NCBI RefSeq assembly: GCF_004920405.1
Contig: NZ_RFLV01000003.1
Coordinates: forward strand, 124,001 to 188,000
Length of the DNA: 64,000 bases
Reading direction: 5' to 3'
From: Pseudomonas leptonychotis
GTDB taxonomy: Bacteria; Pseudomonadota; Gammaproteobacteria; Pseudomonadales; Pseudomonadaceae
The notes beneath the pieces were generated by a model. It was not told the origin of the DNA, ran no database searches, and saw only the letters and a list, made by a program, of their open reading frames with translations. Below, piece after piece: positions 35,108 through 52,190 of this stretch (within the stretch, counting starts at the first letter, position 1; each line of letters begins with the position of its first letter). The position numbers and the translations under genes are program-made.

Positions 35108-35114
35108 GCGTTTG

Positions 35115-35165
35115 AGCATAGAGGGAGGCTCATAGCCTCCCTCTATGCTTCGATTCCTTTTTTTT
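35115..35165 (+). terminator. Strong terminator of the YqaJ operon
   Basis: AGCATAGAGGGAGGCT and its perfect complement flank CAT (16-bp stem), with a run of eight T ending at 35165. The stretch 35166-35339 between convergent operons has no gene I can support. Confidence 0.9.
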
Positions 35166-35339
35166 GTTGCTCGAGTCCGTTTTCCGCTTATGTTCTGGTT
35201 GAGTTCAGCAGGTCTTGCCCTGCATCTTTTCGCCACAACTCAAGGAACACATCCCGCCTCGATACAACGCTCAGCAGCCTCACGTGACTGCCCCTGAAAC
35301 CGGGAATCTCCTGACTGGCTTTCGGCGTAAATTGCCCAT

Positions 35340-36602
35340 TCAAGAAATCTGACGGTTTTTTTTGACCATTTGCCCTGTCGTATTATCCATCCGGAACTGC
35401 GTGATTGTTCCATCAATTATTCGGTTGATCACGTCCCTTGCCACCTCTAACGAGACAGCAAACCACTCACGCGGGCGATAGTAATTCCCGTCCCTCCCGA
35501 CTAAATTCACGTTGAGTCGTTGGACTGCCAAGAAGCCGTGAACCAGCGCCTCGAACCGCTGCGGATTCATGTTGTAACACTCAAACTCAGTAACCTTCTG
35601 CACCGGACTTTCCAAGAAAGCGATATCACGCTCTGCATTGCGAATCCGCTCATCCACCGTCAGCTCGGTGTAGCCGATTTTGTAGAGATGTGGAAACTGA
35701 GCCAGAGCGGGGTTGTTGCTCAGCGACTTGACGATATAGACCACCCCAGTTCGGCGGTCACGATGAGTCAGGCGAATGTCTTGAAACGCCTCGGCCAAAG
35801 CGTCATCTCGGTCACGCAGGATGCGCCGACCTGTTTCATCCATGTAGAGCGCGCGACCAAGTGAGCGACGCAACATGTTCGACTCAGTGCCGTTCTCGAA
35901 GATCAACCGTAGCCTTGCATCTTTATGCTCACCGCGTCCGTGCTCATCGCCAACCTCATCCACAAAGCACATGACACCGTTGAGAATGAAGGCGTCGCCC
36001 ACCGTAATCTGCCAGTTCTCAGCGAAGCGCACAGACTCCGCCTTACCACTTCTAAGGTCAGCGTGCAGATTTTTGAAAGTCGGCTCAAACTGCCAGAAGT
36101 CCTCGCACTTACTGCGCTGAGCAACTTCATCCGGCACATCTCTTTCAGCTGGAACATGCCTGATATCAAGAATGCTCATGTCGCCGACATCGAGCAACCC
36201 CAAGTCATCTCCAGCCAAAATATCGTCGATGCTCATCACGTCTTCGACGTTCACAGAAGTAGAAGGTGGTGGTGGGGCAGGTATCACGGCCTGCGCCAGA
36301 TTGAGCTTCGTAAAGACGTTGTGCCGATCAAGCGCAGCCAGTGCAACGTGATTGCCCCCCTCCAAAATAGCCTTCAGCCGCTTTGCCATTTGTCGCTCAG
36401 ACAGGCTTTCGCCGTGTTCAGACGGCAGGCGAGCGTACTGGTCAAGGAACTGATTGAGTTCTTCAAACCGAGAAGACATCAGATCATTCTTGCCGGGCGC
36501 AGCAGCGCGTGGCTTCACGTTGAGCAGGCCAAACTCATCTGACGCGTCGAAGATTTCATTCAACGAGTTGAGTTCGCGGCACTTCTTGCCACCTAGGTTC
36601 AT
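35340..36602 (-). CDS. GIY-YIG nuclease (T5orf172-type) protein
   Basis: The C-terminal third carries a GIY-YIG fold: GVVYIVKSL (about 292-300), LYKIGYTELTVDERIRNAE with the YIG-like motif and conserved Arg, then ECYNMNPQRFEALVHGFL with the acidic residue. The N-terminal 280 residues are acidic and unrecognised. I use the ATG at 36602, which has AGGGGGC upstream; a GTG at 36620 overlapping the helicase stop is the alternative. It is the last gene of the minus-strand locus and is probably the nuclease working with the helicase. Confidence 0.82.
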   Translation of the reverse strand: MNLGGKKCRELNSLNEIFDASDEFGLLNVKPRAAAPGKNDLMSSRFEELNQFLDQYARLPSEHGESLSERQMAKRLKAILEGGNHVALAALDRHNVFTKLNLAQAVIPAPPPPSTSVNVEDVMSIDDILAGDDLGLLDVGDMSILDIRHVPAERDVPDEVAQRSKCEDFWQFEPTFKNLHADLRSGKAESVRFAENWQITVGDAFILNGVMCFVDEVGDEHGRGEHKDARLRLIFENGTESNMLRRSLGRALYMDETGRRILRDRDDALAEAFQDIRLTHRDRRTGVVYIVKSLSNNPALAQFPHLYKIGYTELTVDERIRNAERDIAFLESPVQKVTEFECYNMNPQRFEALVHGFLAVQRLNVNLVGRDGNYYRPREWFAVSLEVARDVINRIIDGTITQFRMDNTTGQMVKKNRQIS

Positions 36603-36616
36603 TCCATTGCCCCCTA

Positions 36617-38695
36617 TCACGCTGTTTGCTGTTGCTGAAGCTTCTCGCGTTTACGCTTCTTGATGTACTCTAATCCCTCGGCATAGCGCACCTCAATTGG
36701 GTCATTTGAGGTCAGGGAGGGCTCTCGCCCTTTTTCTTGGCGGAATGCCACAATGCGCGGCCAGAGGATCACCGCCTCCTCATCGGTCATGTTGATCCGG
36801 CCTGCCGCAACCACACCCTGAATTGTCTTCAGCATTGCAGGGGTCACGGATTTCGACAGAATCTCGTACGCACCGTGGAACGGGTTGACCTGATCAATCA
36901 AGTCAATGGTCAAGTGCTCGATGTTTATGAACTTATCGCCCATCTTCACAAATTGCCGACTGCCTTCCGGAGCATTAGGCGGCTGAGGGGGAGCTGTGGG
37001 CTGCGTGATGTAGTGTCCACCAGACTCTTCTAGCGGATAGCAAGTGCCACCAGCAGTGTTACCGCCCTCAATGATTACCGCACCCGGAGGGAGGTCTGCC
37101 TCATCAAACAGCCCACCAGAGGTGCTGATCAATACTTTGGTCAGGACACCTTCACGTACCTGTTCGACTTCCTCAGGAGTCAAGTCGGGGTATTTCGTCT
37201 CGATGATCTTAGGCAACTCGCTCTCATTGATGACCTCAGGCTGAACACCACCACCGACCAATGACTTTCCCACTTCGGGCTTCTGGATCAGTGTGGCAAT
37301 GATGTCGTCACTGTCGCCATTCAAAATCTTGATGACCTTTTCGGAGACAGGGGCCGTTACGTCATTGATGATAATTGTGCCTGGCTCAACCCTCTCGCCT
37401 TCTTTCATCTGCGAGCGAGGTTTAAACGTCACGGTCGGGGCCAACACCTGCTCCATCAGCAGCGACAAAGTGATCGCCTTGAGCATGTTGTTTACCGACA
37501 CTTTCACGTCCTCATCCTCAGCATCCGGCTGAGCAATCAGGTTAGTGAACTGAGCGTGGGCTTTACCCTCAGAGTCGCGGGTGGCACGCCCGATGATCTG
37601 CACGACTTCCGTCATCGAGCTTCGATAGCCGATGGTCAGGACATGCTCGCACCAGGGCCAGTCGAAACCTTCCTTCGCCATGCCAAGGGCAATCACAGCA
37701 TCTAGATCATCCGCCTTCGTGATGTTGCGCAGGTATTCGACAACTAATGAGCGTGTCGGGCCGTCATCGACCAGGTTAGCCACTTTCATCAGCGAACCGT
37801 CGAGGCGCTTAACGGTGAAAATACCGGTGCTCGGATCTTGCTGAAGCACTGTCCCCATCACGTCGAGTATGTGATCGACCGCTTCATGCTTGCCCACTGC
37901 GGCCTCACCGCTGTTGACGTTCGGAATATGGATGATGGTCTTTTGGCGACTATCCAGCACATCCTTCAGCGCATCAATATAGCGCCCTTGGTAGAAATGG
38001 TAGCCAATGCCCAGCGATTTCAGGTGGCGGTAACCGTTGAGCTGTTCGTAATAGGTGTACGTCACCTTGTCGAACTGTGCCTCATCGTCCGGTAGCAAAA
38101 TCGGCACCGTGTCGCCACGGAAGTAGGAACCAGTCATCGCCACGATATGCGCACTGGATTGCTTCATCAGTGAGTCAATCAGCGCCCCCAGGCGGTTATC
38201 TCCATCGACGGAGACGTGGTGGAATTCATCAATCGCCACCAGTGTGTTGTTAAAGTCAGCAGGTATCAGCTTCTCAAATGCGAAGCGCAGGGTCGCATGG
38301 GTGCATACCAATACCTGCTCATCAGGTGCCTGCATAAAGCGGCGGAACGACTCAACTTTCGAGCCTTCACCACCCGGCAAACACAGATTGTTCGACGGCA
38401 GCACCGACCAATCAGCAAAGAAACCGTACTCGGTCAGCGCGGTGTCTCGAAAGGAGGCACCGATGGACATCTCAGGCACCGCGACGATGACCTTGCGCAG
38501 CCCTTGGTTCACCAGCTTGTCAAGTCCCAGAAACATCAGAGCTCGGGACTTGCCGCTAGCTGGAGGGGCCTTTAACAGCAGGTACTGACTGGTGCGTGAA
38601 GCAAAGGCCCGTGCCTGCATTTCGCGCATCCCCATCTCGTTAAGGTTTGCGCTCTTGCCCGTTTGGGCGTACTCCACTTTCAGCAAATCAACCAT
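36617..38695 (-). CDS. DEAH-type superfamily 2 helicase
   Basis: The ATG at 38695 follows GGAAAGGA and gives 692 residues. Walker A is APPASGKS (43-50, K49), motif II is IDEFHH (D156-E157), motif III region MTGSYFRGD, and motif VI VVQIIGRATRD. This resembles the translocase part of type I/III restriction enzymes, but no nuclease motif is seen in it. A long C-terminal extension (about residue 400 on) is unrecognised. Its end overlaps the GIY-YIG gene region and its start lies 22 bp after the methyltransferase stop. Confidence 0.88.
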   Translation of the reverse strand: MVDLLKVEYAQTGKSANLNEMGMREMQARAFASRTSQYLLLKAPPASGKSRALMFLGLDKLVNQGLRKVIVAVPEMSIGASFRDTALTEYGFFADWSVLPSNNLCLPGGEGSKVESFRRFMQAPDEQVLVCTHATLRFAFEKLIPADFNNTLVAIDEFHHVSVDGDNRLGALIDSLMKQSSAHIVAMTGSYFRGDTVPILLPDDEAQFDKVTYTYYEQLNGYRHLKSLGIGYHFYQGRYIDALKDVLDSRQKTIIHIPNVNSGEAAVGKHEAVDHILDVMGTVLQQDPSTGIFTVKRLDGSLMKVANLVDDGPTRSLVVEYLRNITKADDLDAVIALGMAKEGFDWPWCEHVLTIGYRSSMTEVVQIIGRATRDSEGKAHAQFTNLIAQPDAEDEDVKVSVNNMLKAITLSLLMEQVLAPTVTFKPRSQMKEGERVEPGTIIINDVTAPVSEKVIKILNGDSDDIIATLIQKPEVGKSLVGGGVQPEVINESELPKIIETKYPDLTPEEVEQVREGVLTKVLISTSGGLFDEADLPPGAVIIEGGNTAGGTCYPLEESGGHYITQPTAPPQPPNAPEGSRQFVKMGDKFINIEHLTIDLIDQVNPFHGAYEILSKSVTPAMLKTIQGVVAAGRINMTDEEAVILWPRIVAFRQEKGREPSLTSNDPIEVRYAEGLEYIKKRKREKLQQQQTA

Positions 38696-38717
38696 GCTCT
38701 TGGGTCCTTTCCAGTTA

Positions 38718-41474
38718 CTAGGCGGCAGTCTTGGATGCGCGGGGCTTACGGGTTTTCTTGGTCGCAGCTTGAGCAGCCAGCAGCTGACGCTCCTGCTCAA
38801 TCAGCATCTCATAACGGGCAAACAGGTGATCTAGACGTTCAGATGTGTCACGAAACGGTCGAGATCGATATAGCCGTTCAACTGCCGCATCCAGCGCCTT
38901 GTGGGCAAATGTGAGGCTATCTGGCATGCAGCTAAGGTCGTACAGGTCAGCCAGCGACTTTTCCGGATAGCGCTCTCTAACCATCAGAACCTCCTCAGCT
39001 AGAGCTTCGATCTGCGCTCGCTGAGCCTCTGAGGCCTCGGGCCATGGGAACGTGTTGTAGACCAATGAGGCTGAATAGCGGTAATCGCTTTTCATACGCC
39101 CAGCCACAACACGTATCCAGTCATTGTGCATGATTGAAGTAAGCACACCGAACTCGTAGAGAGTCGCATTAGGAATAATCTGTAAGTCGTTGTTAGCGAT
39201 AACAGAGCTATCTACATAGCCAATGGGAACGTACATTCGGTTCTCTGAGGACGTTCTTGGGATGGCCAGATAGCTACCTTCTCGAGGCTGGCGAATTTCC
39301 GTGAACAAATGAGGGGTATTGGCCTTTTTCTTCGTCTGATCCTTCGGACTGAGCAGTCGAGTAGCTTTCACACGCTCAACACGCTTCATTACACCGGGCA
39401 TACAGTTCAATTCATCTGCAGAGCAATTAGCCAGCCACAAACAATATCGAGTAATGCCAGAAAGAAGATCGTCTGCGCCACGATAGGGCTTGATCCATTT
39501 AGCAGAAGCCGGTTCAGAGGCAATAAGCTGCTCGCGCTCAGCAGCATCTAAGATAAGGTGCCCACCATCTGCGGCAATACTTCCGTTGGCAAAAGGAGTG
39601 ACTTGGGCGATTGGTTTTCGCCGCCCATAAGCGACAGTGTTGCTTCCTTCCAGTAGATATGGGCTGACATTAGAAATAATTTGAGCGTGCCATTCATTCC
39701 CAATGCTTTTAAAAAGCACTCGACTAGATGGATTGGCAGACAACCCAACAATTACGACATGGACGGCTGCGTTCTTCTTGGCACTATTTTTCCACTTGAA
39801 TGGTTGGTATGCGAAGCTGATGTGCAGGCCGAGATTAAGGATACTTGGCCAGAGCATTGCTACCTGCTCGCCTTGGCAGATTGAGTTAGTGGATACCAAG
39901 GCCAATTCAGACCGGGTGCCATCGATGTACTGTGCCCCCTTCCAAAACCAGCAAGCCACTAGGTCAAGATCCTTGTAGCTGTCAAACCCCTGAAAGACCA
40001 GGGCCATATCGTCGCCCTGTTCTTGCGACCGATCCTTACCAGATGCAACGAATGGTGGATTCCCGATCATGTACATCTCATCATCGGTCGTAATCGGGCA
40101 AACATCATTCCAATCTAAGCGCAGGCTGTTTCCATGAACAATATTGCCGCTCGCCTTCAACGGCAGCAACGGCTCCGCGTAACCAAAGGCCACCTTGAAC
40201 TCAGTGTTCATCTGATGCTCAACCAGCCATAGCGACAGTAAAGCAATCTCATGAGCAAAGTCGTCGATCTCGATGCCGTAGAATTGCGACAGCTTGATAC
40301 CTGTCATGAACATCACACGCTGCTTGCTGACTTCGTTCAGCGCACGGAACACCTCCATCTCGAAGCGGCGCAGCTCTTTGTAGGCGATGATCAGGAAGTT
40401 ACCTGAGCCACAGGCCGGGTCGAACACCTTGATGCAGGCAACCCGCTCCAATAGGTCTTTCAGCTTCTTCTCGCTACCCCGCGAACGCTCCAGCTCAGCG
40501 TATAACTTGTCTATAAATAGCGGCTTGATCACCTTCATGATGTTACTCACGGAGGTGTAGTGTTGCCCCATGGTGCTGCGCTGCTCCTCGTCGATAACGG
40601 CTTGGAACATCGAACCAAAGATATCCGGATTGATCTGTGACCAATCCAGCGTTCCGCACTCCAGCAGCAGGCGGCGCGCCCTAGCCCCGAACTCGGGGAT
40701 TACTATCTGCTGCGCGAACAGGCCGCCATTCACATACGGAAAAGCTATCAGATGTGCCGGCATGGAGAGACGCAGGCTGCCATCCTCCGGCTCACTGAGC
40801 ACTGCAAACAGCTTGCCTAGGAACTCAGCTACGTCTCCACCATCCTCACGGGTGGTAGATTTGATCGCACCACTGAATTGATGTCTGGCGAAAATTTCGG
40901 TGTCTTCAGCAAAGAAACAAAAAAGTAGACGCGTGAGGAACACGTTGAGGCCATGCACTTCGTCAGCAGTCGTGATCTGATTGCGCTCACGAATTAAGTC
41001 GAACAGTCGCCCCATCTTCTCTGCCGCTTTTACGTCCGCCACACTTTCGCTGTGGGTGTAACTCTTCTCAAGGCCAGCCAGCGGCAAGAAAAAGCTGTAC
41101 AGCTGATGCAGTTCGGTGAGTGGCGTTTCCATGCGCTCATCCGCCTTGAGGTCATAGGCCACCAGCTCTTTGTAGTCGGTGACAATGACGAAGCGGATCT
41201 TCTGTGTCTTGATGATATCGCTGGCCTTGAGACGATCAGCGGCTTCATGGACGCTCTCACCAGCCTGAGCAGGATGGAAATAGAGTTGGCCTTTTAGCCC
41301 AACATCACCGCCGATCTTGGCCACATTACGGACACCGCCGTTCCTGATCTGGGTAATCGTGCTCTTAGCGAAGCCGTAGGCATCCAGAAAACCATAAATG
41401 AACTCAGCCTGTACGTCTGCTTGCTGGGTCAGTGATTCCAGCGTGTCATAAAGCTGAGTTTGATTGATTGACAT
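38718..41474 (-). CDS. Class I DNA methyltransferase (N6-adenine type)
   Basis: This 918-residue protein has SAM-binding motif I FDPACGSGNFL (D352 onward) and catalytic motif IV GNPPF (N472-F475), the gamma-type order of type I/IIG N6-adenine methylases. The N-terminal 300 residues resemble the MmeI/YeeA group but I see no PD-(D/E)XK site with confidence. The C-terminal part probably reads the target sequence. It most likely marks self DNA for the helicase and GIY-YIG nuclease downstream. Confidence 0.88.
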   Translation of the reverse strand: MSINQTQLYDTLESLTQQADVQAEFIYGFLDAYGFAKSTITQIRNGGVRNVAKIGGDVGLKGQLYFHPAQAGESVHEAADRLKASDIIKTQKIRFVIVTDYKELVAYDLKADERMETPLTELHQLYSFFLPLAGLEKSYTHSESVADVKAAEKMGRLFDLIRERNQITTADEVHGLNVFLTRLLFCFFAEDTEIFARHQFSGAIKSTTREDGGDVAEFLGKLFAVLSEPEDGSLRLSMPAHLIAFPYVNGGLFAQQIVIPEFGARARRLLLECGTLDWSQINPDIFGSMFQAVIDEEQRSTMGQHYTSVSNIMKVIKPLFIDKLYAELERSRGSEKKLKDLLERVACIKVFDPACGSGNFLIIAYKELRRFEMEVFRALNEVSKQRVMFMTGIKLSQFYGIEIDDFAHEIALLSLWLVEHQMNTEFKVAFGYAEPLLPLKASGNIVHGNSLRLDWNDVCPITTDDEMYMIGNPPFVASGKDRSQEQGDDMALVFQGFDSYKDLDLVACWFWKGAQYIDGTRSELALVSTNSICQGEQVAMLWPSILNLGLHISFAYQPFKWKNSAKKNAAVHVVIVGLSANPSSRVLFKSIGNEWHAQIISNVSPYLLEGSNTVAYGRRKPIAQVTPFANGSIAADGGHLILDAAEREQLIASEPASAKWIKPYRGADDLLSGITRYCLWLANCSADELNCMPGVMKRVERVKATRLLSPKDQTKKKANTPHLFTEIRQPREGSYLAIPRTSSENRMYVPIGYVDSSVIANNDLQIIPNATLYEFGVLTSIMHNDWIRVVAGRMKSDYRYSASLVYNTFPWPEASEAQRAQIEALAEEVLMVRERYPEKSLADLYDLSCMPDSLTFAHKALDAAVERLYRSRPFRDTSERLDHLFARYEMLIEQERQLLAAQAATKKTRKPRASKTAA

Positions 41475-41510
41475 GAAGTACTTCCCTTAATCAGCTGGCG
41501 ACTTGCTGCT

Positions 41511-44123
41511 CTACTTACGTTGAGCTTCGATTATCTGCTTGCGCGCTTCTACTGCGGCTCTCCATGTTTCAAGCCGCTCAATATCGCCCTTAAGCTCATC
41601 TGGGTGTGGTGTTGGGAGCTGCGCAGGTGCTGCAGCATCGTGCTCGAACTTGGAGCTCTTGGTCATTCCAGCATCGATCTCTGCGTAATCATCGTCCTCA
41701 ACGACCACATAACGCAGGTTTTGAGTGGAAACACCTTCATTGAACCGCTGTATCACACTCTGAAACAGCACTTCTTCGACGGCACGCTCCCACGCAAGCC
41801 TTAGGTGGTAATAAGCATCTCGCGTCAGTCGTTTGTAATCGTCTTCTTCTCCAGCTTTGTATGCTCTCTCCACGCTGACATGCAGCTGACGAAGAGCACC
41901 GATTCGAGCCTTCGTCTTGAGCTTGTCGAAGGGAATACGATCTGTCTGAACACCAAAGCCTGCTCCCGTGCGGCGGATGCACTGTGTACTCAACTCTGCA
42001 TCAGCCTCTTCAGCCTTCTGTTGAAGGATGCACAGGAAATAGATGTCATGAGTGAATACAATCACCTGCCGTTTTTTGGCCTCAGCAGCAAGGCGTGCGG
42101 CGACCTCCCAGCGCCTGCGGTGGTCAAGTGATGAAACAGGGTCGTCAAATACAACTCCACCCAACCCTTTCCCCAGTTGCATCTCTGCCAGGAACGCTGC
42201 AATGGCAATAGCTCTCTGTTCGCCTTCACTGAGGACAGCCGCTGGAGGGCTGCCGCCTGGCAATTGCAGGGCAAGCTTGAACTGTGTCTTGCCACCAGGC
42301 GATACCGGTTTCATCACTACTTGCAACTCATGAACGTTTAAGCTGCGAAGCTCGGCATTGAGTGCATCCGCGACCTCCTGCGTAGCCGTTGTCTTTGAAA
42401 GCTCAGTGGCCTTACGGGAGATACCTGCGGGAGAGATTGACTCGATACAAGCCTGGAGCTTTGATGAGTGCTCATGCTTGGCAATGGCATCCAAGACTGC
42501 AATTTTGAAGTCAATCAGTCGCGTTCTAGCGTCTAACTCGGCTTGCTCAACAACCATGGCAGCTTTAGCTTTTTCGTCCATCGCTGCTTCGAGCGCCTTA
42601 GCATCGCTCTCTAGCCTGGTCGTAAGCTCCAACAAAACCCTGCAAGGTTCGACCGGCATCGGTTGGATACGACTCCACTCATACTTGCTAACACAGGCAG
42701 CTAAAGCTTGTGCATGTCGATCCAGTAAGACGCACTGTATCTCGGAACAGTTGACGGCTGCCTCCGGGCTAGCATCGTTCAGCTCCTGCTTGAGCGCCGC
42801 ATCAATCTGGATATTTGGCTTGGCGACTTCGAAGGCACGAAGAGCATCCATTGCAGCCTTACGGGCATCTTTCCAAGCCCGTTCGGCTGCCTGCGCAATA
42901 AAAGCATCAAAGCTAGCAAGCCGATCAACCCCTTCTTGCCCCAATGGGTTCTGGCATAACGGACACGGGGAGTCATCTGGCAAGTGAGGGTACTGGTGCC
43001 CCGCATGTGACTGAGTAGCGAATGCTCTAGCGGCATCAAGGAGTGCCTTCCACTCATCCCCACCAGTACCTGGCAGTAATCCCGGAGTTTCCTTGAATAC
43101 CCCAGCCGCAAGCTCGGCAGCCCTCCGAGCAGTACTTGAAGTTTCGACAAGCCTCTTGAGCTCTAGAATTTTTGCATCGCTGACTGAGTCAACTGCAGCT
43201 GTAATTTGGACGGAGAGATCCGTTAGCCGTTGAGCTCTCAGCTGAAGTACCTGTGCCTTTTGCTTTGGGTCGGCTTCAGCCAGCACTTTGTTGAGGGTAA
43301 TAAGACGGTCTGCTTCAAGCACGCTAAGCGTCGCCAAGGCTTCGACCTCAGGGGCTTTAGTCGCACCTGGAATTGCTTTGAGCGCCCGCCCCACCGCTGT
43401 ACTGGTCTGAGCTAAGGTTGAAAAAATAGCAATATTGGGAGTGTTGAGCCGTTTCTCAGTAGTGGCTTTATCTTTGATAGCACTGCATACAGCAACTAAG
43501 CCACCCAGGATGTCGAGCCCATAAGGGACATAAGCGAAGTCCCCTTGGTTGTCGATGTAGGCCCGAGCACAGAGGCTGTCAAATATAGCGATTTCCGAGA
43601 GTTGCTCAGGGGACTCCTTTCCATTTACCCAGTGAAGCTCAATCGGCTGACCATCTACTGTGGCTTCAAAGACCGCTTGAGCTGGCCCAACTTTACCGGG
43701 CTCCTTTCGTGCATCAGGAAGAATTAGCTCACGCTGGTCACGTGCGCGACAAGCTTGCTTAAGTACTCGTGAGTAGCCAGATTTACCAGCCCCGTTTTCT
43801 CCATAAATGACCGTCAAACCATTAGGGCTGATCGGCAGGCGCATGCCTTCAGCCAAGGCATTGACGTTCACAAAATCTTTAATCGCTGTCAGCTGAACCA
43901 AACGATTCTTGAGCGGAGCCGCTACGAACTGCCCTGCAGCTAGCGGCTTTGACTGACGTCCGCTGGGGTCGACAATCCCATGTTCCGCCTTGGCTAGTGC
44001 ATAAAGGTCCTCAAGATCGGCGTCTGCCATCGTGCGATTAACATAAAGTCTTGAGACTGCATCCTGCTGCCAAGGCGCAAGACTCTTCTGAGACCATAAA
44101 AATATCTCTTGCAGGATCGACAC
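41511..44123 (-). CDS. AAA ATPase with zinc-hook motif (RloC-like?)
   Basis: This 870-residue protein starts at a GTG behind AAGGAGG. Walker A is GENGAGKS (108-115), Walker B FDDPVSSLDH (D660-D661), H-loop VIVFTHD. Mid-protein CPLC (C387, C390), flanked by helical text, looks like a Rad50/RloC zinc hook. AAA_13 proteins with a hook include the anticodon nuclease RloC, but I cannot find a sure nuclease triad in the last 150 residues. It sits between Wadjet and the methyltransferase on the same strand. Confidence 0.8.
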   Translation of the reverse strand: MSILQEIFLWSQKSLAPWQQDAVSRLYVNRTMADADLEDLYALAKAEHGIVDPSGRQSKPLAAGQFVAAPLKNRLVQLTAIKDFVNVNALAEGMRLPISPNGLTVIYGENGAGKSGYSRVLKQACRARDQRELILPDARKEPGKVGPAQAVFEATVDGQPIELHWVNGKESPEQLSEIAIFDSLCARAYIDNQGDFAYVPYGLDILGGLVAVCSAIKDKATTEKRLNTPNIAIFSTLAQTSTAVGRALKAIPGATKAPEVEALATLSVLEADRLITLNKVLAEADPKQKAQVLQLRAQRLTDLSVQITAAVDSVSDAKILELKRLVETSSTARRAAELAAGVFKETPGLLPGTGGDEWKALLDAARAFATQSHAGHQYPHLPDDSPCPLCQNPLGQEGVDRLASFDAFIAQAAERAWKDARKAAMDALRAFEVAKPNIQIDAALKQELNDASPEAAVNCSEIQCVLLDRHAQALAACVSKYEWSRIQPMPVEPCRVLLELTTRLESDAKALEAAMDEKAKAAMVVEQAELDARTRLIDFKIAVLDAIAKHEHSSKLQACIESISPAGISRKATELSKTTATQEVADALNAELRSLNVHELQVVMKPVSPGGKTQFKLALQLPGGSPPAAVLSEGEQRAIAIAAFLAEMQLGKGLGGVVFDDPVSSLDHRRRWEVAARLAAEAKKRQVIVFTHDIYFLCILQQKAEEADAELSTQCIRRTGAGFGVQTDRIPFDKLKTKARIGALRQLHVSVERAYKAGEEDDYKRLTRDAYYHLRLAWERAVEEVLFQSVIQRFNEGVSTQNLRYVVVEDDDYAEIDAGMTKSSKFEHDAAAPAQLPTPHPDELKGDIERLETWRAAVEARKQIIEAQRK

Positions 44124-44237
44124 GCGAACCTCCTTGTTATGTCGGTAGAGACAATTGAGCTGTACTTCGGCTCACTGGTGATTGTATTGCAATGATCTCA
44201 TAGCGCGGCCTGATGTCCCTCAAAGAGGTGTTTATAC

Positions 44238-44822
44238 CTAAACGTCGAGATCTCCCTCGCTGAGCAGATCGTTGAAGAAAGCGGTACCGGACTCAGAAAG
44301 AACGAGGTTTCCCTTGCCATTCCGGTAGGCGATTGCGCGAGCCTCCAGCTTCTTGATGTGCTCCATCAGCACACCGCTTTTCATCCCACACGCCATCAGC
44401 ACCTCGATCTTATCCTCCCCCTTACCAATCTCCTCGATATGAATGTTTGACAGCCCTGCTGAATCATTCAGTAGTACGTCCATTGTGAAGCCCAGCTCCA
44501 ATGTTCCCCGAAACAGAACCAGTAGCAGACCTTGGATGTTGCGTGCCAGGTCATCTTTGACATCAGTGCCATCACTGGTCCGGATGAAGGCGAAGCCATC
44601 ACGCATGACCAGCTCATACCCAATCAGATCGTAGAGATTGCGGTAGTGATCGAAATTATTCAGCACTTCCTCGAAGTACGGATTCGATTTCAAGACCCCA
44701 TCAACCGATGCGGTGCGGTTGATCATCTTCCCGTACATGAGCTGACCATAGAGCTCTACTGACAGCTTTCGATTCATCACTTTGGCCTGCACAACTGGCA
44801 TAGAAGCTTCGTGCTCAAGCAT
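44238..44822 (-). CDS. jetB: JetB-like (MukE/MksE-type) subunit of Wadjet
   Basis: This is a 194-residue helical protein with winged-helix features, including YDLIGYELVMRDGFAFIRTSD, a pattern seen in MksE/JetB proteins. Size fits the family. It overlaps the JetA stop by 8 bp. In Wadjet, JetB bridges the kleisin JetA and the SMC-like JetC. A 114-bp gap separates it from the AAA ATPase, the largest gap in the locus. Confidence 0.78.
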   Translation of the reverse strand: MLEHEASMPVVQAKVMNRKLSVELYGQLMYGKMINRTASVDGVLKSNPYFEEVLNNFDHYRNLYDLIGYELVMRDGFAFIRTSDGTDVKDDLARNIQGLLLVLFRGTLELGFTMDVLLNDSAGLSNIHIEEIGKGEDKIEVLMACGMKSGVLMEHIKKLEARAIAYRNGKGNLVLSESGTAFFNDLLSEGDLDV

Positions 44823-46236
44823 GTTCAGTCTCCACTTGCAGCTTGTAGTACCTAAGGCTCTCGCAGTCAGTTGCGAGGTTGCCGATTTGGTAGCGCGGGA
44901 TGAGGAAAATTCCTTCTCGCTTGCGCAGCCAGCCCACCGACATTAGGAGATCGGTCAACTCGTACCCTTTAAGGCGGTCTTTCAAGTGTTCATGCATAGC
45001 GACGTGGGCGTCATCGATAAGCCGTGGCTCCCATTCCTCGACCAGACTACCTATGGCCAATAAGCGAGCATCACGCCGACGTTTGAGCTCACCCGACTCA
45101 TTGGTCTGCCCGCTGAGCTGGTGGATCTTCCCGCTACTGATCTTGATGTTGGGCAGTGTTGTGCGTAGATGCTCTGCCAACGCCAAGCGCTGGTTAGCGT
45201 CTTGCCACTCAACTTTTGCTTCGAACACTCGCATTTTCAGCCCGGAATAGGTGTTCAGGCGGGCAAATACAGGATGTGTGCTGGGCAGAATATTGTCTTT
45301 CAAGCTTCCATCATGCAGCTCGCGCACGCCCCCGTAGAGACGATTCCAAGCCTGCTCAATCTTGTCATAGGCTCGACGGTGCGCCTCACTCTGCTGGACA
45401 TAGCGCATTAACGAGCCACTGATGATCGAAATGTCGTGCCGGTATGAGCGAATCGACTCGACGGAGTAATAAACCGAGCTGGCCAGCTTGTCGTGCCCAT
45501 AGTGGGCCAGCTGGTCGCCGATACAGGTCAGTGCAGTGAGGGCAGGCTTAGTCCCCTTTAGGTCAGTGTGTTCGCCCAGGAACTGCAAGGCTGGCAGGAT
45601 GTTGCGCAGGTAGATGCTGTTGATCTCGCCTAGGGCTTCCTGAGCCTTCGCCACCTCATCGATGACGTCATAACGCATCTGATCGACGATCTCACCGAGC
45701 CGCTGGAGCCGGCTCTGTAGCGCATCCACGCACTCCTTCATCTTGGCGGTTGCAGCGCGTATCTCCTTACGCAGCACACTCACCTGCTCCTGAAACCCAA
45801 TGTCTTCGCGATTCAGAGACGGCAGAGTGATAAAAACCTCGTAGAGCCGGTTGAACGATGCCCGGATCAACTCGTAATCGGCACTGTTCAAATGACGCAG
45901 ACGCGCCCCATCGAAGTGCCGGAACATCTCGATCACGAAGGGGGCGAAAACCATCACCCCACGAGCGCTGTCTACCTGAATGACCAGGCCGACACGCTCA
46001 AGGTTTTCAATGCAAAGAGCGCTTTCCAGTTTGCGCCGCTCGGCCGGCACCTCGCGCACAACTCGCGTGCTCGGTAGCGGTGCTACAGAATCCAACAGGG
46101 CGCGTAAACTCTGCTGGTACATGACAATGCGGACTTCCTCACCCTCACCGACTTTGTCCATGTGATCAATCAGATCAAGGAAAACCCCCTTGTTCTGGAT
46201 CATGCTGATCAGTGCAATATCCGTTTTGACGACCAT
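44815..46236 (-). CDS. jetA: JetA-like kleisin (MukF/MksF-type) of Wadjet
   Basis: This 473-residue protein has an N-terminal winged-helix-like region, a long helical middle (KEIRAATAKMKECVDALQSR) and a C-terminal winged helix (LTDLLMSVGWLRKREGIFLIP), the plan of MukF/JetA kleisins. It starts 8 bp after the JetC stop and overlaps JetB. The assignment relies on size, architecture and its JetC and JetB neighbours. Confidence 0.78.
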   Translation of the reverse strand: MVVKTDIALISMIQNKGVFLDLIDHMDKVGEGEEVRIVMYQQSLRALLDSVAPLPSTRVVREVPAERRKLESALCIENLERVGLVIQVDSARGVMVFAPFVIEMFRHFDGARLRHLNSADYELIRASFNRLYEVFITLPSLNREDIGFQEQVSVLRKEIRAATAKMKECVDALQSRLQRLGEIVDQMRYDVIDEVAKAQEALGEINSIYLRNILPALQFLGEHTDLKGTKPALTALTCIGDQLAHYGHDKLASSVYYSVESIRSYRHDISIISGSLMRYVQQSEAHRRAYDKIEQAWNRLYGGVRELHDGSLKDNILPSTHPVFARLNTYSGLKMRVFEAKVEWQDANQRLALAEHLRTTLPNIKISSGKIHQLSGQTNESGELKRRRDARLLAIGSLVEEWEPRLIDDAHVAMHEHLKDRLKGYELTDLLMSVGWLRKREGIFLIPRYQIGNLATDCESLRYYKLQVETEHA

Positions 46237-46244
46237 CAGATCCT

Positions 46245-49202
46245 CTACTCGCCTATTTCGACAGCAAGAGCCGGCTCGACTGCCTCACGGTACTCCAAGG
46301 CGATCAAGGACTCACTGAGACCGGTGTAGAGAATCGTCCGGTTCGGGCTGTAGGATTGGTCGGTTGCGCTGAAGTAGTCGAGGTTCATGTAGTTACCTAG
46401 AACTTTGCTGATACCAGATGTCAGGCCAGGCGTAGCCCCGAATACACAAAAGCCATCCGCGTCGGCAATGTCGCGTGCCGAACGCAGATTCTTGTCGTCG
46501 AGGTTGGACAGCTCATCGATAAACAGTGGCAAGCTGACCTTGGTGTCGGCTTGCAGCAACTCTTTGAGTAGGAAGGCCAGCAGACGGCAGTTGATCATCA
46601 CTGAAGTACCCGTTGATTGGGCTTCGACAGTGAACTCATCGCTGCCTTGCAGCTTGACACGGTAATCGACGCTGACGATCAGGCGAGCCATATTCAGGGT
46701 TGCATCCCGACGCTGATCAGACTCGACGAACTGAGTACAGAATTTACCAAGGCGATCGTAGAGGACTTGTGGTGGCAACTCGCCTCCGGTCAGATTCACG
46801 GAGTCTACGGTCTTAAGCAGCTCGTCGAATTGGGGATGTAGCTGGCAGTCGATTGCCACAGCAGTGAGGTTAGAGACCTTGATTGACGACAGGTGATTCT
46901 CGATCTCTTTGATAAAAGTACTAATCAGGGTGCGTGCGTGCCTGATCGACTGAATCTGGATCATGGTGTCATCATTATGCTGAACCACTTGGTTGAAATG
47001 GTTGTTCTCTTCCATATCGAGACGACCATAGAGAACCCTGTACTTCTCATGCAAATTGCTCAGCGTTTCCAGGCTTACTGCACTGCGGTGGGCATGCTCG
47101 GCATCGTCGTCTAGAGCAACCGCAACTAACAGATCGGACACCAGCGACTTGATCTGGTTGAAGCTACGACTGATAGCTTGACTGCGGGTTTCGATGGCAT
47201 CCATCAACTCCTGAGTAACCACGACCTCCTGACGCTCTGCACGTTGGTAGCCGGTTTTCAGATACTCCAGACGCGAATGCAGGATGTCGTTGACCGTCCT
47301 GCTCCAGCGGAGCATGGATTGTTCACGTTCCTTAGCGGCTTCCAATGCTGTTCTGGCCTGGTCAACCAGACGGTTGGCTTCGTCGAGTTGCAGGTTGAGC
47401 TCAAGGCAGCGGGCCTCAAGAAGTTCGAACCGCTCGGTAGCTTCGCCATGTTCCCGCTCTAATCGCACGAACTCCTGCTCAATGAATTCATGACGTTTCA
47501 ACAGGGCAATGTTGCGCTCATCCTTCTCGATCTGAGCCTGTTTAGCAGCAATGGTGCTTTCGATCTGCTCGACTGACATTTTCGTCTTATTGGCAAGATC
47601 ACTGGCGCGCCGTTTTTGCTGAATAAGGCGCTTCTGGACAGATGCCAATTCGTCCTTACGGCTCTGTAGCAGCTTGCCGGCATCGTAATGTTTAACCGGG
47701 ACTGACGTCGGACTGCTCAGGAACGTGAGCGAGCCTTCCTCCTCGTTAAACAACGCGGCGAAACGTTTAATCGTCTCAATGTTACCTTCGAGCAATGGAG
47801 GGCACTCGCCGGTGAAGACCTCCTGGTTCAGCGAGTAGAGAGTGTCCGCTGTACGGCTGGGGATCTGGTCCAGATCCAGGAGTGACGGTTTCGCACCTTC
47901 AATGAGGACATCAAGATCCTTGACCTTCTGGCTGCCTTTGTTGATTTCACGTGTTAACTGCTCGAACTCACGACGAAACTCGCCGTCGTCCTTAAGAGCC
48001 TTGATGTCGGCTAGATCCTCCTCGACCTGCTCAGCCAGTGCGGCAGCTATCTCTTCCGGGGTCATGGACGAGTAGCCATGCATCGCCGTTGAGAGGTCAA
48101 TTAAATCCTTTTTGATCCGCTCGTAGTTCTTCGTGATCTCGCCGATAGCGCCTTTCAGTTCCTTGCGCTGGGTGTTTTTACTAGCCGCCTGTTCACACTG
48201 GTGATCAGCAGTTTCTTTGACCGCACTGTAGTTCGCAAAGCATTGCATACGGGCGTCGAGGTAAACCGTGCCCTGCTGGTTGATGCCCTGCTCAACGTCA
48301 CACAACAGATTCATCAGATCCGAGCTTTGGACATGAAGATCGGTGAAGTTCTGAGTAAAGCGATCCCAGTAAGGCTGCCCGTTGCGAATCACCTGGAGTC
48401 GGTTTTTTACCGCGCTGAGGGTTTCATAACGCGACAGGATTTCGATGAGGTTGACGTTCAGTTCGGCCTCAGTACGATCCTTTCTGCCCTCAATGATCGT
48501 AGCGATGGTGTCCGGCAGAGTACGTTTATCTTTGGCTGCAATGTCGAAGGCCAGGTGAATAAGGCGTTTCCAGGCATCAATCTCACGAGCTTGGCTGCCA
48601 CCGCTCTTGAGCGGCAGCAGACAAAAGCGACCAGCATCGGGGCGTGTAGGCTGGTGCCTGTAGATTCGCTCCTTGATATTCGCCACATCCTTGATCACTA
48701 CAGCGCCCAGCCTTTTCAGGGTCGGCTCAATCTGTGAAGTCGACAAGCCTTCAATCGGCGCCCCCATGCCTCCGTTGAGGCTGGATTCATGATTCCAGAA
48801 GAGGTGCTCGATTTCCGAATATGGCACTGGCACAGCAGTACGCTCATAGCTGTATTGCTTGGTGCCCATATTCAAGATGATGCAGAACGGCCCATGCGGA
48901 TTCTCCGCTTCAAGAACCATGAAGGAGTTCCGCTCTGGAAAATAGAAGCCAAAAGTCGCATCTCGGCCGTAGTGGCCTTTTGTGCTCTTGAATCCGAACT
49001 TTCGCTCACAATCGTGGAGATTTTCTTCGGGCAAGAGGAAGAACTTCAATGCATTGAGCATTGAGGTTTTGCCCTTATTGTTGTCGCCGAGCAAGGCCGT
49101 GTGTTGGTCGATTCGAACCTTCGTATAGCAGTAAGCCCCACTGTTGATCAGCACGATCTGCTTCATCTTGAAGGCTTCGTGGAACATAGATTCGATGCTC
49201 AT
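46245..49202 (-). CDS. jetC: JetC-like SMC/MukB-type ATPase of Wadjet
   Basis: In this 985-residue protein Walker A is GDNNKGKTS (39-47), a long coiled coil fills about residues 280-740, a signature-like STGTSVMINCRLLAFLL follows, and Walker B is LFIDELSNLDD (D896-E897). This is the condensin/MukB-like motor that extrudes plasmid loops in Wadjet. Its ATG overlaps the JetD stop by 4 bp. Confidence 0.87.
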   Translation of the reverse strand: MSIESMFHEAFKMKQIVLINSGAYCYTKVRIDQHTALLGDNNKGKTSMLNALKFFLLPEENLHDCERKFGFKSTKGHYGRDATFGFYFPERNSFMVLEAENPHGPFCIILNMGTKQYSYERTAVPVPYSEIEHLFWNHESSLNGGMGAPIEGLSTSQIEPTLKRLGAVVIKDVANIKERIYRHQPTRPDAGRFCLLPLKSGGSQAREIDAWKRLIHLAFDIAAKDKRTLPDTIATIIEGRKDRTEAELNVNLIEILSRYETLSAVKNRLQVIRNGQPYWDRFTQNFTDLHVQSSDLMNLLCDVEQGINQQGTVYLDARMQCFANYSAVKETADHQCEQAASKNTQRKELKGAIGEITKNYERIKKDLIDLSTAMHGYSSMTPEEIAAALAEQVEEDLADIKALKDDGEFRREFEQLTREINKGSQKVKDLDVLIEGAKPSLLDLDQIPSRTADTLYSLNQEVFTGECPPLLEGNIETIKRFAALFNEEEGSLTFLSSPTSVPVKHYDAGKLLQSRKDELASVQKRLIQQKRRASDLANKTKMSVEQIESTIAAKQAQIEKDERNIALLKRHEFIEQEFVRLEREHGEATERFELLEARCLELNLQLDEANRLVDQARTALEAAKEREQSMLRWSRTVNDILHSRLEYLKTGYQRAERQEVVVTQELMDAIETRSQAISRSFNQIKSLVSDLLVAVALDDDAEHAHRSAVSLETLSNLHEKYRVLYGRLDMEENNHFNQVVQHNDDTMIQIQSIRHARTLISTFIKEIENHLSSIKVSNLTAVAIDCQLHPQFDELLKTVDSVNLTGGELPPQVLYDRLGKFCTQFVESDQRRDATLNMARLIVSVDYRVKLQGSDEFTVEAQSTGTSVMINCRLLAFLLKELLQADTKVSLPLFIDELSNLDDKNLRSARDIADADGFCVFGATPGLTSGISKVLGNYMNLDYFSATDQSYSPNRTILYTGLSESLIALEYREAVEPALAVEIGE

Positions 49203-50017
49203 GGACGCTCCTCACATACTGCTGTCACCAAGTAGGTTTCTTGCTCAAGCACCCTGCTGCTGTCACGCATGAACCGGATCAATTGATCTGTCTCAGGTGA
49301 TAGCCCTTGATACTTAATGACCTCCTGCCGCTGTTGATCGGTCAACGCGTACTTGGACTGAGCCAACCGCTTTTCAACGTCAGGCGGGACAAGGAAAACG
49401 GGGGGCTTTTCATGCAGCAACGCTGTCAAAGAAGCGAACATCCGTAGGCCTCCCATGTCCACATCGAACAGGCAATACAGCTCATCGAACTGACTCAGCA
49501 CATTGGCATTCAGCTTGTTAGTCACCTGATTGCCCGAACCGGAGATCAGCTCAATATCACTGGCGGTACCAGCCAACATCCCAGCAATGAACGGCAGCGT
49601 TTCATCTACTCGAAGGAAATTCTCCAGGTTTTCAACAATAACCCCCACCCTGCCCAGTGCCCTCGGCAGCACCCATGCGCCAGCTTCAGTTACCGCCACA
49701 GTCGGATGCCGATGCTGAGCAGAGCGAAATATCAGTAACGACTCGGATACACCAACACGATGGCTATTGCCGTCTATAGCTGCTCCGACTCGGCCTCCAA
49801 CATCCGATGGCCTGAACCTCATCAAAAGCTCATCGAAGGCTGCCGAAAGAAGCACTTCGACGTGATAGCTATTTTTTTTAAGCTTCTTGGCCAAAAAAAT
49901 GCGACTGATGTCTTCTCGCGCAACGCCTGCAGCCACAAGCTTTGCGATCAGCGCATCAAAGTTGATGGGCTGCTGTGATTGAACTTTGGCCAGATAGCTA
50001 TAAATGACAGACGACAA
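49199..50017 (-). CDS. jetD: JetD-like TOPRIM nuclease of Wadjet, short form
   Basis: This 272-residue protein carries the JetD-type TOPRIM: VIVENLENFL (E129-N130), ISGSGNQVTNKL, and LFDVDMGGLRM (D185, D187). In Wadjet, JetD cuts plasmid DNA when the JetABC motor stalls. It is well below the usual 380-400 residues, so much of the N-terminal domain is missing or reduced. It is the first gene of the minus-strand locus, whereas jetD is normally last. It is divergent from the WYL regulator. Confidence 0.82.
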   Translation of the reverse strand: MSSVIYSYLAKVQSQQPINFDALIAKLVAAGVAREDISRIFLAKKLKKNSYHVEVLLSAAFDELLMRFRPSDVGGRVGAAIDGNSHRVGVSESLLIFRSAQHRHPTVAVTEAGAWVLPRALGRVGVIVENLENFLRVDETLPFIAGMLAGTASDIELISGSGNQVTNKLNANVLSQFDELYCLFDVDMGGLRMFASLTALLHEKPPVFLVPPDVEKRLAQSKYALTDQQRQEVIKYQGLSPETDQLIRFMRDSSRVLEQETYLVTAVCEERP

Positions 50018-50221
50018 AATCGACTTCCTTGTGAAAATTGTTAGCCCTCAGGCATTTCAATAAATGAATCACCAAATCAGGACCCTCGCGGGGCTCCCTC
50101 GAAGAGAACGATTCAACCGAATGAAAAACCTATGGATCAAGTGCGCCAAGGGAGAACCGCGTAGATCTCTCATTGAGCACAGCGCTCACGATATGTAAGC
50201 TTCAGCGACTCATCTAGAGTG

Positions 50222-50239
50222 TTTACCTGTACAGGTAAA
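50222..50239. promoter_or_regulatory. Palindromic operator before the WYL regulator
   Basis: TTTACCTGTACAGGTAAA is a perfect 18-bp palindrome, 23 bp before the WYL regulator start and about 205 bp from the divergent JetD start. It is the obvious candidate binding site for a dimeric BrxR/CapW-type WYL repressor. Confidence 0.78.
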
Positions 50240-50262
50240 GTTTTCGAGCAGGTGGAGAGCCA

Positions 50263-51138
50263 ATGAAACGAAAACAGTCGATTGAATCCATCCGCTGGGA
50301 TTTGGCCCTACGCTACCGCCTGATCGAAACAGTAGCATGGTGGGAAGGCCGCTTAACCACGGGCCATCTGATGCAGAGCTTCGGTATCAGCCGCCAGCAG
50401 GCGTCGAAAGACATCAATACCTATATCAACGACCACGCGCCTAAAAACCTGGAATATGACAAGCATTTGAAGGGGTATGTGCCGAGCAAGCAGTTCAGCC
50501 CGCTGTTTATAGACGACAGCGCCAGCGCTTATCTACACCTGGTCAGCCAAAGCCACGACCGCGCCCCGCATGTGGAGGGGTTGGCTCTAGCCTACGCCCA
50601 CACCGAAGTGCTGCAAGTGCCGGATCGCTCGGTGCGCCCTGAAGTGCTGCGCCCGCTATTGAAGGCATGCAGGGCCGGGCTACGTCTGGAGTGTGAGTAT
50701 GTGTCGTTCAATACGCCGCAGGTGGAAACTCGGCTGATCGCACCGCACACGCTGATCTACACCGGCATGCGCTGGCACCTGCGCGCCTACTGCGAGAAAA
50801 ACCGCGATTACCGGGATTTTGTGCTGAGCCGCTTTCGCGGCGTACCCGAGCTGATGGATGACGAAACCGAATACACGCGCGAGCTAGATCCTGGCTGGAG
50901 CACTAAGGTACAGGTCATTATCGAACCCGACTCACGCCTGAAACCCGAGCAAAAATCCATCATCGAAACCGACTACGCCATGCAGGACGGTCGGCTGGTG
51001 ATCGAGACCCGAGGTGCGCTGGTGCAGTACGTGCTGCAGCGCTATCAGATCGATACGACCAAAGTTCATACCAAGGCCACGGCGCAGCAGATTGTGGTGG
51101 TGAACTTGGATGAGCTGCAGGGATGGCTTTATCACTGA
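50263..51138 (+). CDS. WYL-domain transcriptional regulator (BrxR/CapW-like)
   Basis: This 291-residue regulator has an N-terminal winged helix (GHLMQSFGISRQQASKDINT), a WYL domain with PHTLIYTGMRWHLRAYCE and the Arg-rich VLSRFRG, and a C-terminal WCX domain (VQVIIEPDSRLKPEQK). GGTGGAG precedes the ATG. BrxR/CapW proteins repress adjacent defence genes and release on a phage-induced ligand. It is divergent from the Wadjet block and convergent with the CHAT gene, overlapping it by 7 bp. Confidence 0.92.
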   Translation: MKRKQSIESIRWDLALRYRLIETVAWWEGRLTTGHLMQSFGISRQQASKDINTYINDHAPKNLEYDKHLKGYVPSKQFSPLFIDDSASAYLHLVSQSHDRAPHVEGLALAYAHTEVLQVPDRSVRPEVLRPLLKACRAGLRLECEYVSFNTPQVETRLIAPHTLIYTGMRWHLRAYCEKNRDYRDFVLSRFRGVPELMDDETEYTRELDPGWSTKVQVIIEPDSRLKPEQKSIIETDYAMQDGRLVIETRGALVQYVLQRYQIDTTKVHTKATAQQIVVVNLDELQGWLYH

Positions 51139-52190
51139 GTCCTAGGCTTAACCAATATGAGGTCGCTTTCATCGACACCATCACGCAGGTACAGCTCTGG
51201 AGTGGAGTCCTCTGAAATACCCTCCAGCATCAACGCAGTCTTAGCTTGCTTGAAAGCAGCCGGAATTGAGCAGCCAAAGCCAATAGCCGAATAAAACTGC
51301 GCTGAAAATACGCGGGCAGCTTCGTCGCCAATTGACTGATTCATGCCAATTGCCGCATCCACATATTGCGTACATGCGACCGCCTGGTTGAACGAGTGGC
51401 ACGTATTAAAGAAAACCAACCGAACCGAGTCGTAAAGTTCAAAGGTGGCGACAATGCTCGCCATCGAAACCAGCTTAGCGTCGCCGTTTCGGTCTTGAAG
51501 AACGAGCTCATCCTGATCGCTGCCATGCCCACTAAAATGCACAATCGTGGGCTTAAGCTCGTTCATGTATTGCAGAATTTCTGAAGGACGCAGCGCCCAT
51601 CTCGACTCAAGCTTTACCGCGTCACGATGATCCGATAGTCGAATTTTTTGGTGAATCTCACGGACTTCTTCATCCAGCAATAGCCTGCGGTCAGAGGCTG
51701 TCGCAGGATCAGTCGCAAAGAAGGCAACCTTAATTTCCTCGGGCAGCGCAGCCAACTTATCAATACGGGCAGCAGTTTCCCTGTGCAGAGAATCATGCGT
51801 TTTCAGGCTGGACTCTACCTCTCGGAATTGCCGTTTTTGCGCCTCCTGCATTTTTTGCTGCTCCGTATTTCTTTTCTTCAGCACCTTCGCTTCTTCGCTT
51901 TCCACGCGCGACTCAGCTGTTGCCAGTTTTTTCTGCTCTGCGGCAATCTTCTTCTCCAGCTTGGCAACTTCAACCAAATGCTTCGCCTGCAAATCTGCAT
52001 ATCGGGTGGCTTCTTTAAGCTTGGAGGTAGTTGTAGATAACTGTTTGGTTTTGCTGGCGGCAGATCCAGCAGCAAGAGATTTTTTCCCCGCATCAGCCGC
52101 CTTCTGCGACTCCCCGGCCTTCAAGCTCGATAGCTTTGCTATGGCTTCACGAACGCTGGCGACTTGACGACGATACATATCAACACTCAT
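51132..52190 (-). CDS. CHAT caspase-like protease with N-terminal coiled coil
   Basis: Of 352 residues, about 30-140 are strongly helical and charged (KKLATAESRVESEEAKVLKK). A CHAT-type peptidase follows: VHFSGHGSDQDEL with the likely catalytic His222, and LVFFNTCHSFNQA with the likely Cys264, the C-terminal part ending near VKPRTQ. The region PSEILQYMNELKPTIVHFSG is typical of standalone CHAT effectors in defence loci. No TPR or gasdermin partner is adjacent; a 33-residue membrane peptide gene lies upstream on the same strand. Confidence 0.85.
   Translation of the reverse strand: MSVDMYRRQVASVREAIAKLSSLKAGESQKAADAGKKSLAAGSAASKTKQLSTTTSKLKEATRYADLQAKHLVEVAKLEKKIAAEQKKLATAESRVESEEAKVLKKRNTEQQKMQEAQKRQFREVESSLKTHDSLHRETAARIDKLAALPEEIKVAFFATDPATASDRRLLLDEEVREIHQKIRLSDHRDAVKLESRWALRPSEILQYMNELKPTIVHFSGHGSDQDELVLQDRNGDAKLVSMASIVATFELYDSVRLVFFNTCHSFNQAVACTQYVDAAIGMNQSIGDEAARVFSAQFYSAIGFGCSIPAAFKQAKTALMLEGISEDSTPELYLRDGVDESDLILVKPRTQ

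Follow-up and report, generated by a model that had tools for sequence, protein, structure and literature searches.

A WYL-fronted defence locus of Pseudomonas leptonychotis, read as three separable modules in one slot of an ssrA-integrated island

In Pseudomonas leptonychotis, a compact locus at positions 35340..51138 of a 64,000-nucleotide stretch of contig NZ_RFLV01000003.1 (the window) places eight minus-strand genes behind a single divergent WYL-type regulator. The locus very probably consists of three separable defence modules, arranged one after another within a slot of an island integrated at ssrA: a WYL gene with a jetD-jetC-jetA-jetB set of Wadjet/MksBEFG type, a lone zinc-hook AAA ATPase, and a trio composed of a methyltransferase, a helicase and a GIY-YIG nuclease. 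The presence of several systems in one exchangeable slot is well supported, and the exchange of modules is directly visible in relatives that carry near-identical jet genes; the second and third modules would fill the place where these relatives hold other cargo, directly behind jetB.

A check of the open reading frames bears out the genes, strands and order that the first-pass annotation had given. The WYL gene (50263..51138) lies on the plus strand, and is followed on the minus strand by jetD (49199..50017), jetC (46245..49202), jetA (44815..46236), jetB (44238..44822), the AAA ATPase gene (41511..44123), and the genes for the methyltransferase (38718..41474), the helicase (36617..38695) and the GIY-YIG nuclease (35340..36620). 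The junctions from jetD to the GIY-YIG gene, as called, measure -4, +8, -8, +114, +36, -83 and -4 base pairs (bp), which agrees with the tight packing described earlier, including its single larger gap of 114 bp after jetB (44124..44237). The -83 overlap is a start-codon artefact, since the helicase frame had been called from a TTG (36617-38800); the annotated starts of three plasmid homologues correspond to residues 35-36 of that frame, and the preferred start is an ATG at 38695, behind GGAAAGGA, which leaves 22 bp to the methyltransferase gene.

The co-occurrence of the two halves, as tested with profiles of all eight proteins (E 1e-8), provides one line of evidence. Profile searches found trio genes in none of the 20 other JetDCAB loci whose 3' side could be read, and Jet genes in none of 14 trio loci, including the four plasmids that were read; the visible flank was in every case at least 4.6 kilobases (kb) after jetB or at least 4.0 kb before the methyltransferase frame. 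In the loci sampled (0/20 and 0/14), the halves therefore show the rare co-occurrence that the first-pass annotation had named as an argument against a joint system. Its proposal of a single eight-gene system is rejected on the basis of these disjoint loci and of the homology with close relatives, which ends at the jetB stop; its alternative, two systems, was right, the more exact count being three modules.

A second line of evidence comes from the junction itself. JetC relatives at 92-96% identity were encountered in Stutzerimonas azotifigens (L012), in Pseudomonas sp. ICMP22404 (L013) and in a Burkholderiales metagenome-assembled genome (L014), all of which hold jetD-C-A-B and a WYL gene, and none of which, within the stretch examined, holds a counterpart of the AAA, methyltransferase, helicase or GIY-YIG gene. 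By blastn, the window matches L012 over 44236-56905 (90%), L014 over 44237-55007 (91%), and L013, L061 and L075 over 44237-50032 (87%) and 50172-51139 (79%). The left edge of homology in these five relatives thus lies one or two bases past the jetB stop (44238), and over the next 6 kb none of them matches the window; for L063, a more distant locus, the edge is located 13 bases inside jetB. When the tails after the jetB stop are compared in all pairs, L013 and L014 share approximately 60 bp, L012 shares 9-13 bp with both, and the window shares 1-2 bp. Because the relatives share longer tails, the flush edge is particular to the junction in the window, and a site-specific junction at jetB is ruled out on the same grounds; no shared word of 10-12 bases linking the two edges of the cargo was found. 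On the S. azotifigens contig (also read as L060 and L079), window positions 31350-34777 match on the far side of the cargo, indicating the same backbone and the same jet block with different cargo between them.

The cargo behind jetB belongs to different families even where the jet genes are nearly identical. In L012 it consists of an SNF2 protein with a type III methyltransferase and a type III restriction endonuclease, and in L014 of a second WYL gene, an SNF2 protein and a type III-like methyltransferase. L063 carries ResIII and a methyltransferase, L062 carries DUF6361 and a helicase, and L013 displays a convergent Schlafen-type helicase, as do L075 (97%) and L061 (98%). On a Methylophaga plasmid (L039, 16908-22875), a 1366-residue PIN-domain protein is accompanied by a 624-residue permuted GreAB-C protein. 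With the window, these make up nine loci of identified cargo; the 3' cargo of 12 further loci (L040, L041, L057, L058, L066-L071, L077 and L078) stands outside this count.

The jetDCAB family itself is sporadic. At a threshold of E 1e-20, a profile built from 20 JetC proteins picked out 4 of 369 genomes sampled across the class; for the family, the phylum and the genus, the counts were 5, 7 and 6, each out of 398. These samples overlap, and each counts the P. leptonychotis genome. The loci read were every JetC-profile match, a distant locus in genome G055 and one of six matching plasmid records (L039). Once L060 and L076 are merged with L012 and L013, whose contigs they repeat, 20 four-gene jet loci with a readable 3' side are left in addition to the window; in L065 the contig ends 17 bases after jetB, and L059 holds jetD and jetC only. 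The order D-C-A-B is found in the window and in all 21 other loci with the four genes, the jetA of L070 and L071 being assigned by position and size; these two have no blastp match to the window JetA, and were included as rows in the JetA profile. Each complete JetDCAB locus carries a Toprim gene with conserved acidic residues. In a JetC tree, the window, L012, L014, L013, L061 and L075 form one supported clade with short branches. Searches of viral contigs yielded 77 stretches that matched a pattern, none of them a relative, and E. coli genomes searched with 35340-51138 gave no near match.

The identity of the Jet subunits was approached by scanning the window proteins with Pfam, PADLOC and NCBIfam models. 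JetB, of 194 residues, passes the MksE model of the KITE subunit (PF21980, E 2.2e-13, 51.3 bits against a cut-off of 27), JetC, of 985 residues, matches AAA_15 (2e-8), and JetD, of 272 residues, reaches JetD_C (6.4e-5, 22.8 bits) barely over the cut-off of 22; in a Pfam scan confined to the window protein, JetD showed no match to the N-terminal DUF3322. In an alignment of 20 JetC proteins, the segments that we take to be the P-loop, the signature region and the DE of Walker B are invariant, while among 16 JetD sequences E129, D185 and E258-Q259-E260 are invariant and D187 nearly so. Profile-profile comparisons, whose E-values are pairwise and not database-wide, relate JetC to the MksB-like proteins that relatives carry on the chromosome (probability 99.9, E 3e-31), JetB to MksE (probability 96, E 1.7e-9), and JetA, of 473 residues, to MksF-like proteins (probability 85, E 6e-6, 194 columns). 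JetA would thus be the kleisin by position and by its comparison with MksF. On another contig of the same genome (L081, 1301-6219) lies a chromosomal MksF-MksE-MksB-like set, of which the middle protein passes Pfam MksE (1.1e-41), the 944-residue neighbor matches the JetC profile (2e-16), and the third is named MksF by position; no JetD-like gene was seen beside it in L081, and relatives hold comparable chromosomal sets.

Established Wadjet models recognize this family poorly. The PADLOC models for types I-III are weak or silent, with no match for JetA (0/15), at most 2 of 14 for JetB1 (best 6e-5), at most 6 of 20 for JetC1 (best 3e-6) and at most 10 of 16 for JetD1 (best 5e-8); the window JetD shows weak JetD1 and JetD3 matches, and none of these types is matched strongly by all four subunits. 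Kinship by sequence to Wadjet chains in the PDB was looked for and rejected for JetC, JetD and JetB, the best matches being coiled coils and SMC4 (9e-5) for JetC and the Toprim region of T7 primase (0.27) for JetD; the genome's own chromosomal MksB- and MksF-like proteins likewise find no Wadjet chain in the PDB by sequence. JetC also touches the AriA, GajA and LmuB models. To judge from these comparisons, jetDCAB is probably a divergent, unnamed Wadjet/MksBEFG type with D-C-A-B order, and it is here that the residue of novelty lies. Surveys that employ models such as those of PADLOC for types I-III would probably miss the family, which forms a link between chromosomal MksBEF condensins and defence complexes that carry a Toprim nuclease.

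The WYL protein, of 291 residues, matches PF13280 (9.3e-15) and is of the BrxR/CapW kind, with PDB kinship to BrxR (7t8k, 3.8e-61) and CapW (7tb6, 1.5e-38). By blastp with the window protein, a WYL gene directly divergent from jetD is present in 11 of 23 JetD-JetC loci, window included, and in L058 the contig ends at the position where it would stand. Between the two divergent genes lies a perfect 18-bp palindrome (50222..50239, TTTACCTGTACAGGTAAA), a candidate WYL operator, which is conserved without change in the window, L012, L013, L014, L061 and L075, six loci with two types of WYL-jetD gap that have diverged in the rest of their sequence. It is degenerate in L063, L039 has a different palindrome, and no such palindrome was found in the more distant WYL-fronted loci L059, L069 and L070. 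The window has no second copy at up to 4 mismatches, the 114-bp gap included, and that gap holds no inverted repeat with arms of at least 6 bp. A simple consensus scan of the gap also yielded no terminator-like site and no sigma-70-like promoter, and hence not the strong promoter that had been suggested earlier as a mark of independent halves. The scan considers the sigma-70 consensus only, and it carries little information, since it found 3 promoter-like sites in 17.8 kb where shuffled sequence would be expected to give 11.6; with neither promoter nor terminator detected, read-through of the gap is possible.

The second module is a separate, single-gene candidate for defence. Its AAA_13-type ATPase (Pfam) matches the PADLOC PDC-S06 model PDLC04891 end to end (1.3e-217) and holds a CPLC zinc-hook-like motif. 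The family was matched in 267 plasmid records, three of which were read: in one the gene has BREX-side genes to one side and a toxin-antitoxin-like pair to the other, in another it adjoins a BsuBI/PstI-type restriction-modification (R-M) system, and in the third it is near an integrase, with no trio or Jet gene in the stretch examined of any of the three. Two of 20 other Jet loci (L077 and L078) contain a family member at approximately 29% identity.

The third module begins with a predicted N6-adenine methyltransferase that contains all five MmeI domains (Pfam) and matches MmeI in the PDB (5hr4, 5e-200). The motifs FDPACGSGNF and NPPF are retained, and LYFHPAQ stands where MmeI has LLIEMKS, whose ExK we assume to be the nuclease motif; the MmeI ExK segment is kept neither in the window nor in any of the 13 homologues, out of 14, that cover it. 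A bifunctional MmeI restriction-modification enzyme is thus ruled out by the loss of the nuclease segment, and membership in DISARM or BREX was rejected as well, given that the DrmMI and PglX models match only partly and the best match is of MmeI type, dnmA. The helicase, of superfamily 2, matches DEAD and Helicase_C weakly, in both cases below the cut-off, and its GKS and DEFHH motifs are conserved in 15 of 15 sequences. The GIY-YIG protein (T5orf172/MUG113) matches PF13455 (1.1e-14) and PF10544 (2e-12), with its Y, K-[IV]-G, R and E positions also conserved in 15/15; for all three proteins, these motifs presumably have their customary catalytic meanings. The helicase was matched in 17 of 369 class genomes, 11 of them other than the P. 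leptonychotis genome and at E 2e-132 or better, and in 263 plasmid records, four of them read here. The 14 complete trio loci are L035-L038 and L042-L051, to which L052 (cut by a contig end) and L053 (a helicase fragment) may be added; the methyltransferase frame is split into two pieces in L042 and L050. It may be mentioned that in L045, L046, L047 and L049 approximately 1.1-2.4 kb separate the methyltransferase and helicase matches, and that an extra gene may sit there. The trio has been published as the dnmA-yeeB-yeeC cluster of B. subtilis, for which the excerpted text of PMC9973331 describes a conserved gene order and an MmeI-like DnmA without the nuclease motif.

A number of observations weigh against the reading in three separable defence modules. 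One genome, G168, contains both halves, on different contigs. The JetA profile, in contrast to those of JetB and JetC, which match their chromosomal partners in plain profile search, found nothing by hmmsearch at E 10 among the same MksF-like proteins; its 15 members show no Pfam kleisin, no other meaningful Pfam match and no PADLOC JetA match, and the identity of JetA as a kleisin is therefore of moderate strength. JetD in turn lacks the DUF3322 match and clears its cut-off narrowly. With regard to the trio, the portion of PMC9973331 at hand reports that B. subtilis deletions of dnmA-yeeB-yeeC left sensitivity to three phages unchanged and that loss of dnmA did not alter plasmid uptake; it also reports that deletion of the Vibrio crassostreae homologues raised sensitivity to some phages. 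The cargoes of L012 and L014 are partly related, in patches of 68-81%, and a co-directional methyltransferase set follows jetB in four of the nine identified loci (window, L012, L014 and L063); there is room here for an indirect association of the jetDCAB type with R-M sets. Finally, since no promoter or terminator was detected in the 114-bp gap, the second and third modules may be driven from the jetD side.

This last point leads to an arrangement in which the systems are independent but form one transcription unit, the WYL protein controlling jetDCAB and, by read-through, the ATPase and the trio. Such an arrangement has a fair amount in its favor, yet falls short of an even chance: the genes share one strand and short junctions, the gap shows no promoter-like or terminator-like site, the candidate operator is located upstream of jetD only, and BrxR-family genes are reported, in the excerpts of PMC9122601, beside many defence systems and mixed clusters, Wadjet included; on the other hand, the promoter scan addressed the sigma-70 consensus only, the cargo of L014 has its own second WYL gene, and the next large gene is convergent in L013, L061 and L075. 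These last two observations indicate that joint control is not a conserved property. One integrated eight-gene system, reading methylation and DNA topology together, is highly improbable, since its compact co-directional run and the methyltransferase sets behind jetB in 4/9 loci are countered by halves that are disjoint in the other loci read, by near-identical jet genes that are followed by cargo of different families, and by trios that stand without Jet genes on four plasmids; as a conserved system, it is refuted by the loci sampled. It is rather unlikely that JetDCAB, with its Toprim nuclease, is a condensin-like complex or an anti-phage one in place of an anti-plasmid Wadjet. The resemblance of JetC, JetB and, less surely, JetA to chromosomal MksB, MksE and MksF would fit such a complex, as would the contacts of JetC with the AriA/GajA/LmuB models and the short JetD without DUF3322; the lack of a JetD-like gene at L081, the Toprim gene in each complete JetDCAB locus and the sporadic distribution of these loci argue against it.

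If the three-module reading holds, the first module would act as a self-regulated Wadjet/MksBEFG-type unit, in which a dimer of the BrxR-like WYL repressor, bound to the 18-bp palindrome, would keep both divergent genes quiet until released by a ligand, which may be nucleic-acid fragments from an invader. The JetC-JetA-JetB motor may then extrude small circular DNA, such as that of plasmids, for cleavage by the Toprim domain of JetD. The lone zinc-hook ATPase (PDC-S06) would represent the second module, and in the third, the nuclease-less MmeI-type methyltransferase would mark host DNA, while the helicase with its GIY-YIG nuclease would attack DNA that lacks the mark, a predicted restriction activity. 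A more speculative proposal, advanced tentatively, is that jetDCAB and its WYL gene constitute an unnamed fourth Wadjet type, close to or derived from chromosomal MksBEF and equipped with a short JetD, and that the place behind jetB is a docking slot for the exchange of restriction-type modules, so that they share this regulator's control or benefit from it. Were this true, the slot would join topology sensing and modification sensing by neighborhood and not by shared subunits. The natural module-swap pairs described above offer a means to test whether a shared regulator, instead of protein contact, holds neighboring defence genes together, and they illustrate that a tight run of genes on one strand is no evidence of a single system.

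The locus resides in an integrated island of approximately 35 kb (24951..60397), marked by the transfer-messenger RNA (tmRNA) gene at 24951-25338, an adjacent tyrosine integrase (25376-26782, Phage_integrase 1.4e-30) and an attR-like partial copy of the tmRNA at 60300-60397, which agrees at 79 of 100 positions with the end of the tmRNA and the bases that follow. The island also holds a minus-strand Gabija system (27015..31261; PADLOC), with GajB at 27015-28931 (1.1e-233) and GajA at 28928-31261 (5.6e-272), followed by DUF932, YqaJ and recombination directionality factor (RDF)-like genes (31639-34882). On the other side of the locus, the first-pass annotation had not included a minus-strand gene (51132..52190) whose last bases overlap the end of the WYL gene, tail-to-tail. 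It encodes a CHAT-domain (caspase-like) protein similar to PADLOC PDC-S66 (PDLC05062, 3.4e-14), with a CHAT match of 8.4e-5 and 22.6 bits, below the Pfam cut-off of 24, and it is present in L012 and L014 and was not found in L013. Farther along, at 54690-56930, a 746-residue protein shows a C-terminal match to the viperin-associated NERD model and no Pfam match at E 0.001.

With respect to known systems, the jet genes resemble Wadjet/MksBEFG in their four-gene set of SMC ATPase, putative kleisin, KITE subunit and Toprim nuclease, in a JetB that passes MksE, and in a JetD that keeps the Toprim acidic residues and the C-terminal EQE motif. They differ in their order, D-C-A-B as opposed to mksF-E-B-G (A-B-C-D), the operon order given for C. 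glutamicum and Pseudomonas in the available part of PMC10123090, a comparison that leaves aside the orders of types II and III; in a JetC of 985 residues, where the same excerpt gives 1111 for C. glutamicum MksB; in a JetD of 272 residues without a DUF3322 match; and in the weak or silent response of the PADLOC models for types I-III, the types named in the portion seen of the review PMC10586767. In titles and abstract beginnings, no Wadjet type with D-C-A-B order or a WYL front was encountered, types II and III being again outside the comparison of gene order. The trio shares with dnmA-yeeB-yeeC its three genes, their order and the lost MmeI nuclease motif, as far as the excerpt of PMC9973331 describes them, and differs in its position behind the PDC-S06 ATPase and JetDCAB, an arrangement that none of the 14 other trio loci shows. 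For PDC-S06, a PADLOC phage defence candidate, the window ATPase matches over its whole length and no difference was found. The regulator, lastly, resembles BrxR and CapW in sequence and in the inverted repeat upstream of the WYL gene. The R-BOXes of BrxR of pEFER, as given in the excerpts of PMC9122601, are 11-bp repeats with a 5-bp spacer, whereas the palindrome here is of 18 bp and has no spacer. Since BrxR-family genes are reported beside Wadjet in the same excerpts, a WYL gene in this position is not new as such; what distinguishes the present one from BrxR and CapW is that it fronts jetDCAB, and not BREX or CBASS.

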